A stretch of 64,000 bases of DNA from contig CANMMR010000007.1 in assembly GCA_947499095.1 (NCBI GenBank), forward strand, positions 124,001 to 188,000, given 5' to 3'. The position numbers were made by a program, and so were the translations under genes. Shown piece by piece: positions 56,596-64,000 of this stretch (the first letter of the stretch is position 1; the number at the start of each line of letters is the position of its first letter). The DNA is from an uncultured Erythrobacter sp. (lineage in GTDB: Bacteria > Pseudomonadota > Alphaproteobacteria > Sphingomonadales > Sphingomonadaceae). The notes below the pieces were generated by a model. The model was not told the DNA's origin, ran no database searches, and saw only the letters and a list, made by a program, of their open reading frames with translations.

Positions 56596-56621
56596 GGAAC
56601 TGTTTTTGAGACTGGGCCGTT
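56596..56621 (+). promoter_or_regulatory. EcfG-type (general stress response) promoter
   Basis: GGAAC (56596-56600), then 17 bases, then CGTT (56618-56621), matching the alphaproteobacterial EcfG consensus GGAAC-N16-17-CGTT exactly. It lies 43 bases before the response regulator ATG (56665), giving a leader of about 35 bases. The general stress response in this group is triggered through PhyR-NepR-EcfG, often by HWE/HisKA2 kinases such as the one encoded just downstream. Confidence 0.75.
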
Positions 56622-56664
56622 CGGTCCACACGATTAAGGCGGGAAAAGGTTAAAAGTCGCCCCG

Positions 56665-57030
56665 ATGCAGAATGTTATGATTGTAGACGACGAGGCGCTG
56701 GTGCTGCTCGACCTCGTCCATACCGTCGAAGATCTCGGCTATGCGATCCACTCGGAGTCGACGAGTGTGGAGGGTGCTCTTGCCTCTCTGGAAGGCGAAG
56801 CCCCCGACCTCGCCCTGCTGGATATCGATGTCGCAGGAGTGCCGGTCTGGCCGGTCGCGCGTGAACTGACTGCGAAGGGCGTGCCGGTGATTTTCGTCAG
56901 CGCGAACCTTTCGCACAAAGAGCTGTGCCAAGAATTTGCCGACTGTCCGAAGCTCGAGAAGCCGGCGTCCCCAGCAGATATCGGTTCGGCTCTTGAAATC
57001 GCCGGCGAAGTCAAAAGCTGCGCCGCCTGA
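56665..57030 (+). CDS. Single-domain response regulator
   Basis: This is a 121-residue receiver domain with no output domain. The acidic pair Asp8-Asp9, the phosphoacceptor Asp53 (LLDIDVAG), Ser79 (FVSANLSH) and Lys99 (LEKPASP) are all present, so phosphorylation is expected. The absence of an FATGUY-type motif distinguishes it from that HWE-associated subgroup. It is convergent with the CheB-CheR-PAS-HWE kinase gene, 13 bases apart. A stress promoter lies upstream. It could be a phosphate sink or a link between the kinase and PhyR. Confidence 0.92.
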   Translation: MQNVMIVDDEALVLLDLVHTVEDLGYAIHSESTSVEGALASLEGEAPDLALLDIDVAGVPVWPVARELTAKGVPVIFVSANLSHKELCQEFADCPKLEKPASPADIGSALEIAGEVKSCAA

Positions 57031-57043
57031 CCCTTTCTCCCGA

Positions 57044-60000
57044 CTAGGTCGGGAACTTCAAAGTCCGGCGATAACCGCCTTCGATCGCATCGCCGCTGGC
57101 TTCCCCGCGGAGTTGGCGCGCTGCCGTTTGAACGAGCTTGGTGCCGAAACCCGGACTGCTGTCGACCGTGTCACCCGCTGCCTGACCGTCTTCCCGCCAA
57201 TCGATTGCGACTTCGCCATCCTGATGGGTCCAACCGATGTCGATCGACCCGTCGCGGGTGGCCAGCGCCCCGTACTTCGTCGAATTGGTTGCCCACTCAT
57301 GCAGGATCAGCGCAATCGAGGTAATCTTGTCGTTGCTTATCGTCGTGTCGGGTCCGGACATGTCGACGTTTTGACCGGCGAGATTAGGCCGCAGGACCGT
57401 ATCGACGAGCTTCGATAGCGCAATGCCGCCATCGGCCGCGTCGCCAGCCTCGTTGGTCAGCGAATGCGAGCGGCCGAGCGCATGGATGCGATCGCGCAGG
57501 CCCTCGGCGAAGGTAGCGACATCGTCAGCGTCGCGCGCGGCGATCGAGACCATGGCCGAGATGACCGAGAACAGGTTCTTCACCCGGTGGTTCATCTCGC
57601 GGATCATCAATTCGCGCTGATCGAGCAGGCGGCGTTCGGCCGACACGTCGAAGGTCACGCCGATAAACTTGCGCGTGCCGGACACCTCGATGAGTTTACC
57701 GAGGCCATGAAGATAACGGGTTTCGCCATCGTCGAGCGGCAAGCGGAAGACTTCGTCGAAATCGCTGTCGCCTTCCATCGCCATGCGCAATGCGCGATTG
57801 ACGCGATCGCGATCATCCGGCGGCAGCGAAGCCATGATTGGCTCCAGCGTGTCACCGGGATCGTCCTGATCTAGGTCGAACAGATTGCGCTCGGTCGGAT
57901 CTAGCACGGTCTTGTCGGTCGAGGGTTCGTATTCCCAGACGCCGATCTTCGCGACCTCCAGGGCGAGCCTTAGACGCTCGCGTTCTTCACGCAGGTCGCG
58001 TTCCAGCGAGAGCGTTTCGGAGACGTCGGTGAAGATCAGCGTTGCGCCGTCCAGCTGACCGTCGAGCAAGCGATAGGGAATTGCCTGCAACACGAGCTCG
58101 CGATCAAGAGAACTAGAATGCATACCCTCTTCGACCTGCATTCCCTGCTTGGCGGCGCTCTTCGCCATATCCACGAAGTGATCGTTGTCGAGATTGTGCG
58201 GCAGGGTGGCGAGCGGTTGCCCGATATTCTCCTTCGTCAACGGGAAGAGATCTTCGGCTGCATCGGTGAAACTGCGTAGCTTCAGCTCGGAATCGACGAC
58301 AATCACCGCCAGCTTGGTGCTGTCGAAGAAGTTCTTGAGATCGGCATTGGCCGTGGTCAGCTGATCGACCTTGTTTTTCAGCTCGTCGTTGACCGTCGTA
58401 AGCTCCTCGTTGGTGGACTGGAGCTCCTCGTTCATCGACATCATTTCTTCGTTGGAGCTTTTCAGCTCCTCGTTCGTCGTCTCGAGCTCCTCGACCGTCG
58501 AGCGCAGGCGATGCCGAGTGGCCTGCAACTCTTCTTCGAGGAACTGGCGCTGGCCGTCCTCGGGATCGAATTCGTCGTAATCGTCGCCGGTGTCGGGTTC
58601 GAGGCCGCGGGTCTCGTTGACGACGAACAGGAAGGTCTGGTTGTCGATCGGCTCGCAGACGACCGTCGCCTCCAGCGTTCCGAAATCGGTGACGATCTCT
58701 ACCTCTTTCACGATGGCCCGACGCCCGGTGTTCGACACCTGGCGGATCATCGGAGCGAACAGCTCGCGCAGGCCCGGGCGGGCGAGCGAGGGCACGTGGA
58801 TCGAGCGTTCCAACCGCTCGGGGAAATCGAGATACCGCCCGGCCGATCCCCAGCGTTCGAGCAGCATGGCCTCACAATCGAGCAAGAGGCTGACGGGCGA
58901 GTAGCGTTGCGCCAGCTTTTCCAGAGCGCGCAGCTCCACGCCGCCCCGCCGCGTGGTTTCCTCCCGGTTCGACCTCTGTCGGCTGCGATTGATCTGCCGT
59001 GAAACATCGCTGGCCAGATTGAGAGTGTAGTTCCCCTTCACATTCTTGCGCCGGAATATGCGCGCCGTCTGGTCCACGGATTCGAACAGGTCTTCGTGCC
59101 GCCCGATCGTCTCGGACGAGCCGAGGAACAGGTAGCCGCTTTCGCGCGTGGCGAAATGAAACAGCGGGAACACCAGCTTCTGCAGGGAATCGTCGAAATA
59201 GATCAGGACGTTGCGGCAGGCGACGAGATCGATCTTGGAATAGGGCGGATCGCGCACAAGGTTGTGGACGCTGAAGCGCACCATGTCCCTGATTTGCGGC
59301 GCGATGGTGAACTTGTCCTTGCTTCCGTAGATGTATTCATCCTGGAAAAGCTTGGGGATGTCCTGCAGCGACGCCAGCGGGTAGACGCCCCTCCGCCCTA
59401 TATCGAGCATCTTGTCGTCGATGTCGGTGGCGAACACCTGCACATAGGGGCGCTTGTCGAACCGCTTGGCTGCGTCCGCAAACAGCATGGCAATACTGTA
59501 AGCCTCTTCGCCACTGGAGCAGCCGGGCACCCAGATCCGCAGCTCTTCGCCGTTCTTGGCCTCTTTCACCATCGGCGAAATGACCAACTCGTCGAGCTGC
59601 CTGAAATGGTCGGAGTCGCGGAAGAAGCGGGTGACATTGATCAGCAGGTCGCTGAACAAGGCGCTGCATTCGTTGCCGTTTTCCTGAAGGTGCTTGAGAT
59701 AGGCCTTGGTATTCTCGATCCCGAGCACCTGCATGCGGCGAGCGACCCGGCGGTTGAGCGTACTGCGCTTGTAATTCGAGAAATCGTGGCCGACCGCTTC
59801 ACGCAAGACGTCGCAGATATCGAGCAGCGTGTCGGCATCCTCGAGATCGTTCTCGACCACGTCGGCAAGGCCGGCGCGCTGGAAGAATTTCGACAGGTGC
59901 TCGACCGTGTCGCGCGGATCGCAGGTGATATCGACCAGCCCCGTGCCGATGGCGGCGGTGGGCATGCCGTCATAGGCAGCCGTGTCGGGATCCTGCGCGA

Positions 60001-60475
60001 TGCAGATGCCCGAATGTTCCTTGATCGCCCGCAGGCCCCGGCTGCCATCCGCGCCGGTGCCCGAGAGGATCACACAGGCTGCGCGCTCGCCCTGATCCTT
60101 CGCAAGGCTCTCGAAGAAATCGTCGATCGGGCGACGCATACCGCGCTGTTCGGTGAATTCCGTCAGCTCGAGCACACCGTCCTTCACCGCGAGGCCGTGC
60201 GCCGGCGGAATGACGTAAATATGGTCGGGTTCGAGCTTCTCCCCGCCTTCCGCCTGCTTCACGGCCATCGGCGTGTAGCGTTCGAGCAGCTGTGCCATCA
60301 GCGATTCATGCGTCGGATCGAGATGCTGGACCACTACGAAGGCCATGCCGCTCTGGCCGTCGAAGCCGCTGAACATTTCGCGCAAGGCTTCCAGCCCGCC
60401 CGCCGACGCACCGACGCCGACGATCGCGAATTCGCCCGATCGTGCGGGCTTGCTTGCTGGTGCACCCTCCTTCAT
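57044..60475 (-). CDS. CheB-CheR-PAS-PAS-HWE histidine kinase (chimeric signal protein)
   Basis: The 1143-residue protein joins, in order: a CheB methylesterase domain (about 15-200; GVGASAGG with Ser24, VQHLDPTH with His51, SGTGADGSRG with Asp143); a CheR N-terminal and methyltransferase domain (about 215-480; WVPGCSSGEEAYSIAML is the SAM loop); a long coiled coil rich in ELxxxNEEL heptads (about 640-720); two PAS-like domains (about 725-850, 855-950); and an HWE/HisKA_2 kinase with His963 in REMNHRVKNLFSVI, followed by HEWATNSTKYGA and an ATPase domain ending near the C-terminus. The layout fits proteins that couple signal-dependent (de)methylation with phosphotransfer. Its ATG overlaps the LOV gene stop (ATGA), so the two are co-translated. 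No transmembrane segment is seen, so it is cytosolic. Confidence 0.93.
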   Translation of the reverse strand: MKEGAPASKPARSGEFAIVGVGASAGGLEALREMFSGFDGQSGMAFVVVQHLDPTHESLMAQLLERYTPMAVKQAEGGEKLEPDHIYVIPPAHGLAVKDGVLELTEFTEQRGMRRPIDDFFESLAKDQGERAACVILSGTGADGSRGLRAIKEHSGICIAQDPDTAAYDGMPTAAIGTGLVDITCDPRDTVEHLSKFFQRAGLADVVENDLEDADTLLDICDVLREAVGHDFSNYKRSTLNRRVARRMQVLGIENTKAYLKHLQENGNECSALFSDLLINVTRFFRDSDHFRQLDELVISPMVKEAKNGEELRIWVPGCSSGEEAYSIAMLFADAAKRFDKRPYVQVFATDIDDKMLDIGRRGVYPLASLQDIPKLFQDEYIYGSKDKFTIAPQIRDMVRFSVHNLVRDPPYSKIDLVACRNVLIYFDDSLQKLVFPLFHFATRESGYLFLGSSETIGRHEDLFESVDQTARIFRRKNVKGNYTLNLASDVSRQINRSRQRSNREETTRRGGVELRALEKLAQRYSPVSLLLDCEAMLLERWGSAGRYLDFPERLERSIHVPSLARPGLRELFAPMIRQVSNTGRRAIVKEVEIVTDFGTLEATVVCEPIDNQTFLFVVNETRGLEPDTGDDYDEFDPEDGQRQFLEEELQATRHRLRSTVEELETTNEELKSSNEEMMSMNEELQSTNEELTTVNDELKNKVDQLTTANADLKNFFDSTKLAVIVVDSELKLRSFTDAAEDLFPLTKENIGQPLATLPHNLDNDHFVDMAKSAAKQGMQVEEGMHSSSLDRELVLQAIPYRLLDGQLDGATLIFTDVSETLSLERDLREERERLRLALEVAKIGVWEYEPSTDKTVLDPTERNLFDLDQDDPGDTLEPIMASLPPDDRDRVNRALRMAMEGDSDFDEVFRLPLDDGETRYLHGLGKLIEVSGTRKFIGVTFDVSAERRLLDQRELMIREMNHRVKNLFSVISAMVSIAARDADDVATFAEGLRDRIHALGRSHSLTNEAGDAADGGIALSKLVDTVLRPNLAGQNVDMSGPDTTISNDKITSIALILHEWATNSTKYGALATRDGSIDIGWTHQDGEVAIDWREDGQAAGDTVDSSPGFGTKLVQTAARQLRGEASGDAIEGGYRRTLKFPT

Positions 60476-61014
60476 TCCATCCGGGCCCTTGCAATGATGG
60501 AGTGGCTCGACGCCAGCGCGTCGAAACTGCCGAGCAGGGCCCAGTTGTCGTCGCCGGTCAGCAAATTGAGTTGCTTAAGGCTTTCCTTGAGCGCGCGATC
60601 GTAGAGGCCGGGCTCAGAAGCCTTCTCCGGGTCGACCGGAAACTGCGAGCCGAGCACGTAAGTGACCTCATCGTCTTTCTTGAGCTTGGCCATATACACC
60701 AGGTTCAGGAATTTCCGCCCGTCCTTCGTGACGTTCGGAATTACGAACCGGCCATCTGGCTCGTCGGAATCGTAGAGGAATTCGCGCATATCCTTGCGAA
60801 CGGCGTCGGGAGATTCGTCCGGCTGGAGGAAACGGCAGTTGCGATCCAGAACCTCGTCCGGGCCGTAACCGGACATATCGCAGAATGGCTGATTCACTGC
60901 GATCAGCGGCATGTCTTCAGCCTTCGCATCGGCCAGGCTGAGCGAAATGCGGCTCTCGGCGAAAGCGCTGCGCAGACCTGCAGGGAGTTCGGCGCTGGTG
61001 AAGAAGGTATCCAT
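60472..61014 (-). CDS. Short LOV (blue-light) domain protein
   Basis: The 180-residue protein is a single PAS/LOV domain (about 20-140). The flavin-adduct motif GYGPDEVLDRNCRFLQ holds Cys60 in NCRFLQ, and FVIPNVTKDGRKFLN and VYMAKLKKDDEVTYVLG complete the FMN-binding core. A C-terminal helical part (about 145-180) could be a dimerisation or signalling helix. There is no kinase or DNA-binding domain. The start is the ATG at 61014 (MDTFFTSAELPAGLR), with a longer open frame upstream. It is the first gene of a two-gene operon with the chimeric HWE kinase. Confidence 0.92.
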   Translation of the reverse strand: MDTFFTSAELPAGLRSAFAESRISLSLADAKAEDMPLIAVNQPFCDMSGYGPDEVLDRNCRFLQPDESPDAVRKDMREFLYDSDEPDGRFVIPNVTKDGRKFLNLVYMAKLKKDDEVTYVLGSQFPVDPEKASEPGLYDRALKESLKQLNLLTGDDNWALLGSFDALASSHSIIARARME

Positions 61015-61084: not shown

Positions 61085-61160
<76 letters not shown>

Positions 61161-63543: not shown

Positions 63544-64000
63544 ATGACTGACAAAGACGAGCGCGACGAGCCGCCGGAAGGCAACATCCCCGATCATTCC
63601 GAAGGCGAGGACTTCGATGTCGATGTGGATATCGAGGTGGATGTCGATCCCGACCGCGACAGCTCGTACAGCCGCACATATAGCGCGTCGGGCTTTTTCG
63701 GACCCGAGGGCGTATTCGGACCGAAGGGCCCTTTCGGCCCGGACGGACCTTTCGGCCCGGACGGACCTTTCGGACCGGGCGGCCCCTTCGGCCCGAACGG
63801 ACCCTTCGGCAACGGCTCCCGGAGGTCCGGCGGGAAGCATCGCACGCGGCGCCGCCGCATGTTCGCCGCGGGCGAGTTGCGCCTGTTGCTGTTGCACCTG
63901 ATCGCGGAGGAACCGCGCCACGGCTACGAGCTAATCAAAGCGGTCGAGGACATGACCGGCGGCAATTATTCGCCCAGCCCGGGTACGGTCTATCCGACGC
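63544..64000 (+). CDS. PadR-family transcriptional regulator, cut by the right edge
   Basis: The visible 152 residues start at an ATG with AAGGAG eight bases upstream. The first 40 residues are very acidic ([17 protein letters not shown]). Next is an array of FGPxGP units, seven copies of a 6-residue repeat from about residue 51 to 91, encoded by an 18-base DNA repeat (63697-63822). A basic stretch ([14 protein letters not shown]) leads into the PadR winged helix (from about residue 107: [31 protein letters not shown] and SPGTVYPT), which continues out of the window. PadR regulators often control efflux or membrane-stress genes, perhaps downstream here. Confidence 0.88.

Follow-up and report, generated by a model that had tools for sequence, protein, structure and literature searches.

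How does a short LOV protein pass on its signal? This question is raised by a locus in the window, the stretch of 64,000 nucleotides analysed here, in which the gene of a short LOV protein adjoins that of a histidine kinase carrying CheB, CheR and PAS domains, and a gene for a single-domain response regulator faces them. The results of this study point to a split blue-light two-component system, in which a separate LOV protein would signal in trans to the kinase and the kinase to the regulator, and which in the window's group would be wired to the EcfG stress response; we give this reading a probability of roughly 60%. The route would run as described below. In blue light, the short LOV protein, with flavin bound, would form a cysteinyl adduct, and it would bind and switch the neighbouring CheB-CheR-PAS-HWE kinase. 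The kinase would autophosphorylate on His963 and hand the phosphate to Asp53 of the linked regulator. In the window's group, EcfG would switch on the regulator gene, by which light input and the general stress response would be wired together, and the output would be either a forward relay like SdrG or a feedback sink like LovR.

Components of the locus

The positions of the features are collected in Table 1. The LOV protein had been predicted to consist of one domain with Cys60 in an NCRFLQ motif, and the protein agrees with this. PAS_9 is its sole Pfam match at 0.001, which makes it a short LOV protein without a fused effector domain, and its motif reads DRNCRFLQ, with D in place of the first G of GxNCRFLQ. 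Cys60 and the six residues that we take to be flavin contacts are invariant in this protein and seven relatives. Across 33 aligned LOV proteins, N59, C60, R61, Q64, N94 and Q124 are invariant (33/33), and N104 is kept in at least 90%. Judged by these motifs, the protein appears to be a LOV photoreceptor, for which flavin binding and adduct formation are predicted, and it is the one LOV match in the window's genome at E 0.001.

Table 1 Features of the LOV-kinase-regulator locus in window coordinates
Feature	Position	Strand	Residues or remarks
EcfG-type promoter motif, GGAAC-N18-GTT	56596..56621	+	Starts 69 nt before the regulator ATG
Single-domain response regulator, 121 aa	56665..57030	+	D8, D9, phospho-acceptor Asp53, Lys99
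CheB-CheR-PAS-HWE histidine kinase, 1143 aa	57044..60475	-	His963; CheB S24/H51/D143; W1093-x-E1095
Kinase coiled coil, about residues 662-702, NEEL repeats	58370..58492	-	High block conservation
ATGA overlap of 4 nt, LOV stop / kinase start	60472..60475	-	From the reading frames
Short LOV protein, 180 aa	60472..61014	-	Photoactive Cys60; presumed flavin contacts N59, R61, Q64, N94, N104, Q124

The kinase likewise has the make-up that had been proposed, a chimera of methylesterase, methyltransferase, two PAS and HWE kinase domains: Pfam assigned CheB (residues 19-190), CheR_N (220-266), CheR (280-471), PAS_10 (713-818), PAS_3 (862-939) and HWE_HK (960-1043), and His963 is present. Residues 520-640, left unannotated by Pfam, look by eye like a third PAS-like domain. 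HWE kinases are defined by the HWE_HK profile, a phospho-acceptor His, an N-box His and a W-x-E motif; among the 34 LOV-linked kinases compared, H963, W1093 and E1095 were found in all and the N-box residue H1059 in 32. At the positions that we take to be catalytic, the CheB Ser, His and Asp are kept in 34/34 of these kinases. The CheR motifs are intact in the window's kinase and conserved in position among kinases whose genes run in the same direction as the LOV gene (the co-directional group), and E323 of CheR is changed to Q in 12 of the 15 kinases whose genes lie back to back with it (the divergent group). The PAS-HWE half aligns with the blue-light-activated kinase 6ph4.

LOV and kinase were expected on separate polypeptides, and they are encoded by separate genes that overlap by 4 nt, an ATGA overlap that makes translational coupling of the two likely. 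In 17 of the 19 co-directional loci described below, the longest LOV and kinase frames overlap or abut (gap ≤68 nt) with nothing between them. No LOV-kinase fusion was found among the LOV-linked loci; a 1330-aa frame in L264 was considered as one and rejected, since there the LOV frame runs on antisense to the kinase. A tRNA-Thr gene (window 61085-61160, minus strand) lies directly upstream of the LOV gene and is a possible integration site. When four relatives were compared for an empty site (G146 and G078 of the same genus, G015 and G058 with the trio elsewhere), ObgE was the sole one of seven window proteins tried that was found, so that no insertion site could be read.

The regulator, for which Pfam gives a receiver, was described beforehand as a receiver-only protein facing the kinase; its gene is indeed convergent with the kinase gene, with 13 nt between them, and Asp53 is in place. 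Asp53 is found in 33/33 and Lys99 in 30/33 of the regulators compared, 26 of which adjoin a LOV-linked kinase. At the place of the motif spelled FATGUY, the window's regulator reads FVSAN and several divergent-group regulators read FATGY.

Linkage in the family of the window

LOV relatives (E <1e-20) were present in nine of the 149 genomes of the family sample, which includes the window's own, and long kinase relatives in nine (four candidates scored per genome); eight genomes had both. Loss of linkage in relatives had been named beforehand as one outcome that would refute the proposal. Linkage held in all eight genomes with both full-length genes, in which LOV and kinase lie within 0.9 kb of each other (Fisher p 1.6e-11 over the 149 genomes). 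The two genes are directly adjacent in seven of them, and in the eighth, G119, a Crp/Fnr-type gene stands between. The regulator is linked in seven of the eight, convergent in six and co-directional in G105. LOV, kinase and regulator form a conserved unit.

The ninth kinase genome, G005 (L068), has the kinase, in a split frame, and the regulator, and no LOV was found beside the kinase. The ninth LOV genome, G026, has a decayed locus that retains residues 1-96 of the LOV and 989-1141 of the kinase, and its regulator frame is intact. Decayed units were observed at L069:5166-6295, where LOV and kinase are truncated, at L281:7441-8604, where the kinase is gutted and the LOV frame open, and at L068:5401-8780, whose split kinase frame may be a sequencing error. 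Since L068 is without LOV and L281 has a gutted kinase, the two genes can part. The Crp/Fnr-type regulator genes between LOV and kinase at L066:8549-9319 and L091:7480-8220 are 92% identical to each other.

Occurrence beyond the family

The unit occurs well beyond the window's family, which the original prediction had not seen. Over all loci, at least 34 LOV-linked kinases were found, 19 co-directional and 15 divergent. A regulator was detected for 26 of them, and for the other eight none was detected within 300 nt. Most of these loci were found by searching for LOVs first. Because linkage held in the eight family genomes and in these kinases, a functional link, with the separate LOV sensor serving the HWE kinase in trans, appears well supported by comparison of the loci.

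Named genomes were scanned with the LOV alignment, and of 588 relatives among the matches listed 80 were kept. A kinase stands next to the LOV in at least 14 of these 80 loci, the 13 best (L090-L102) and L131. They belong to Sphingomonas (two), Croceicoccus, Palleronia (two), Limimaricola, Thioclava, Paracoccus, Aureimonas, Salipiger, Sphingomicrobium, Tropicimonas, Frigidibacter and a Rhodobacteraceae bacterium. The other 66 kept loci showed no kinase beside the LOV within the DNA examined; 62 of these have LOV frames of more than 265 aa, which is multi-domain-sized, and four have shorter ones (L115, L160, L161 and L166). In the family of the Tropicimonas genome (248 genomes), 21 genomes gave 23 RsLOV-like matches at 1e-18, one of them L102. 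Eleven of the matches, frames of 309-496 aa, were left aside; of the 11 neighbourhoods fetched, nine have the kinase in divergent orientation and two (L265 and L268) are without it.

Of 385 genomes sampled across the class, 37 had a kinase-like match at 1e-100 (two candidates scored per genome) and 35 a LOV match at 1e-15, and no further trio was present among the loci examined. L230 and L232 of this sample have a short LOV without the kinase, and L231 has kinase and regulator without LOV. Of 53 kinases compared, 19 are without a LOV neighbour, including those of the class-wide sample, which were reached kinase-first. Kinases of the broad CheB-CheR-PAS-HWE type are mostly without a LOV neighbour, which counts against the trans model. 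The LOV-less kinase at L231:615-5003, a relative of the divergent group with a linked receiver, is extended at its N-terminus by about 330 residues that have no Pfam match. Short LOV proteins without the kinase also form a related group, looked at in the genomes of L160, L230, L265 and L268. In the first three (L160:3296-7549, L230:3017-7338 and L265:6851-10691) the LOV gene lies immediately downstream of two paired Dynamin_N-type GTPase genes; in L230, a small extra frame lies between the pair and the LOV.

Trees of the kinases and LOV proteins

In a tree of the 53 kinases, made by a quick search with SH-aLRT support only, all 15 kinases of the divergent LOV-linked loci group together (support 100). 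A second group (support 100) takes in the 19 co-directional ones and also the LOV-less L068. The remaining kinases that have no LOV neighbour fall outside both, L231 being sister to the divergent group. The tree of the 34 linked LOVs mirrors the kinase tree of the same loci (r 0.90; 0/2000 permutations as high), with r values within the two groups of 0.88 and 0.89. The LOV-kinase association survives the change from co-directional to divergent order. Linkage and mirrored trees are co-inheritance, which is expected for linked genes and is not in itself proof of contact.

Both trees place Palleronia with sphingomonad sequences, apart from the other Rhodobacterales, and Aureimonas with Sphingomonas pituitosa, and for this reason the pair seems to have moved jointly between orders. 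The trees disagree on Palleronia, which the LOV tree puts outside the Croceicoccus pair and the kinase tree within it, and on Limimaricola, which shifts place. In a tree of 104 LOV domains, whose 125 columns give low resolution, a branch (support 99) separates the linked LOVs, together with four short LOVs that are unlinked, from the other domains, which include every one of the 62 longer LOV proteins and four further short LOVs.

Probable stress control of the regulator gene

An EcfG-type promoter had been proposed before the regulator gene. Sphingomonas EcfG recognises GGAAC-N17-20-GTT (PMC6599016). In the window the motif alone is unremarkable, with two occurrences at spacers of N16-18 vs 2.9 expected in shuffles; what is remarkable is its recurrence before orthologous regulators. 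At N16-18 the motif precedes the regulator in 4/10 convergent loci vs a background of 0.3% in same-length stretches of these loci (nominal p 2e-8, with related loci taken as independent). At N16-20, a range widened after L063 had been seen, it does so in 5/10 vs 0.8% (nominal p 7e-9, again with related loci taken as independent). These five are the window, L061, L062, L063 and the decayed L069, and the motif is absent before the regulators of L064, L065, L090, L092 and L093. As a general feature before LOV genes the motif was rejected (1/24 loci vs 1.2% background). Given this distribution, part of the window's group probably has its regulator under EcfG-type stress control, which is not a general trait of the module.

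The genome of the window encodes PhyR, beside which lie NepR (PF18557), an ECF-type sigma factor, taken here for EcfG, and a CHASE-HWE kinase; HWE_HK has eight matches in this genome at E 0.001, this kinase included. The suggested route from light to PhyR-EcfG is consistent with these components and with the promoter in part of the loci; its connecting link is weaker, and its direction could be either, the regulator feeding the stress response or serving as a feedback sink like LovR. A stress output of the module is plausible.

RsLOV belongs to the divergent group

The most useful result, which had not been seen at first reading, is that the divergent group of the LOV-kinase unit contains RsLOV, a short LOV protein of Rhodobacter/Cereibacter sphaeroides. 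Over 176 residues, the LOV protein of L278, from genome G782 (same genus as G585), matches PDB chains 4hj6 and 4hj4 without a difference. Chain 4hj4 has the same sequence as 4hnb, and 4hj6 (printed without its 4) and 4hnb are RsLOV according to PMC4335406. Its gene lies back to back with the gene of a CheB-CheR-PAS-HWE kinase, followed by a receiver gene. This gene order is kept in four of the five genomes of the genus; the fifth holds L281, whose kinase has lost about residues 105-900 (L280 frame numbering) and whose LOV frame is still open. The RsLOV locus resembles the window in having a short LOV beside such a kinase with a receiver, and differs in its divergent order, in a LOV only 26% identical to the window's, and in a regulator reading FDTGY in place of FVSAN.

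RsLOV is used in optogenetic tools, and it affects photosynthesis and photo-oxidative stress genes (PMC4335406, PMC4844311), with chemotaxis genes also among those affected (PMC4335406). A 2022 paper (PMC9758184) states that RsLOV and DsLOV had no identified binding partners, and a 2019 review only presumes that short LOV proteins signal in trans. No report of a short LOV linked to CheB/CheR or an HWE kinase was found in the portions of the literature available to us, and the primary RsLOV papers may hold a mention. The linked kinase is a specific, testable partner in a tractable genus. The unit would represent a new split variant of LOV-HWE signalling, in which light is coupled to a kinase with built-in methylation-type domains, and it names a partner that can be tested for RsLOV-type short LOVs.

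Alternative explanations

The alternative that survives best, although unlikely, is that the LOV protein is co-inherited with the kinase while its direct target is another protein, e.g. a transcriptional regulator. LdaP of Dinoroseobacter binds PpsR and PmSB-LOV of Pseudomonas binds PmlR2, both partners being transcription regulators (PMC9758184, PMC10890935). The RsLOV effects on photosynthesis and photo-oxidative stress genes, the Crp/Fnr-type gene in L066 and L091, and the LOV frame that stays open beside the gutted kinase of L281 all agree with such a target. However, nothing separates LOV and kinase in nearly all co-directional loci, and in each of the 34 linked loci it is the kinase that neighbours the LOV.

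Somewhat less probable is a side branch of chemotaxis, in which CheB and CheR act on chemoreceptors and light would steer motility, not stress. The conserved CheB residues and intact CheR motifs would suit this explanation, as would the effect of RsLOV on chemotaxis genes and the presence in the window's genome of four MCP-type receptors and another CheR-like match. The linked output, on the other hand, is an HWE kinase with a single-domain regulator, and half of the convergent loci have the EcfG-type promoter before the regulator. A chance or passive neighbourhood of unrelated light and stress genes, for which only the general tendency of signalling genes to cluster speaks, can be set aside as very improbable, since the linkage is conserved across divergent genomes and the trees are mirrored.

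Comparison with known systems

The split two-component reading has its closest parallels in the LOV-HWE kinases EL346, EL368, RT-HK and Brucella LOV-HK, which are described as likewise joining a blue-light LOV domain, an HWE/HisKA2 kinase and the alphaproteobacterial stress response. In these, LOV and kinase form one chain, whereas the window has a separate LOV and a kinase with CheB and CheR. Caulobacter LovK, a one-chain LOV kinase encoded in a lovKR operon with LovR, also differs from the window in this respect and in having no known CheB/CheR domains. The LovK-LovR system shares with the window a LOV input, a kinase, a single-domain regulator and control by a stress sigma factor (PMC5964349). 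Under that sigma factor, LovK and LovR drain phosphate from the pathway, and in Sphingomonas SdrG feeds the stress pathway (PMC5964349, PMC5898713). PmSB-LOV of Pseudomonas mendocina is a short LOV whose target in trans is encoded by a neighbouring gene (PMC9758184); this partner, PmlR2, is a MerR-type repressor, whereas the partner proposed here is a kinase. FATGUY regulators, which are phosphorylated by stress kinases, are stand-alone receivers as is the window's regulator, which differs from them at the motif and in that its gene is linked to that of its kinase.

The coiled coil of the kinase

In the co-directional kinases, conservation in 20-residue blocks peaks at residues 660-699 of the coiled coil (0.96 and 0.98; next best 0.83). 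In the divergent group, the blocks from 660 and 680 reach 0.98 and 0.91, on a par with the H-box block from 960 (0.92). The LOV-linked coiled coil is 14 residues (two heptads) shorter than that of 16/18 kinases without a LOV neighbour, and the short form is also present in L231 and L068. EExx[ST][ST], a pattern that recalls the chemoreceptor methylation consensus, fits three of the five EE repeats of the window's coiled coil. We speculate, as an improbable idea, that the CheR and CheB domains of the kinase might methylate and demethylate the glutamate pairs of its own NEEL coiled coil, by which the light response would adapt in a chemotaxis-like manner without receptors or arrays. If this were true, the best-known system of this kind would have RsLOV as its sensor. 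At the far end of the window, an open frame at 63594-63860 (minus strand) contains collagen-like GPKGP repeats.
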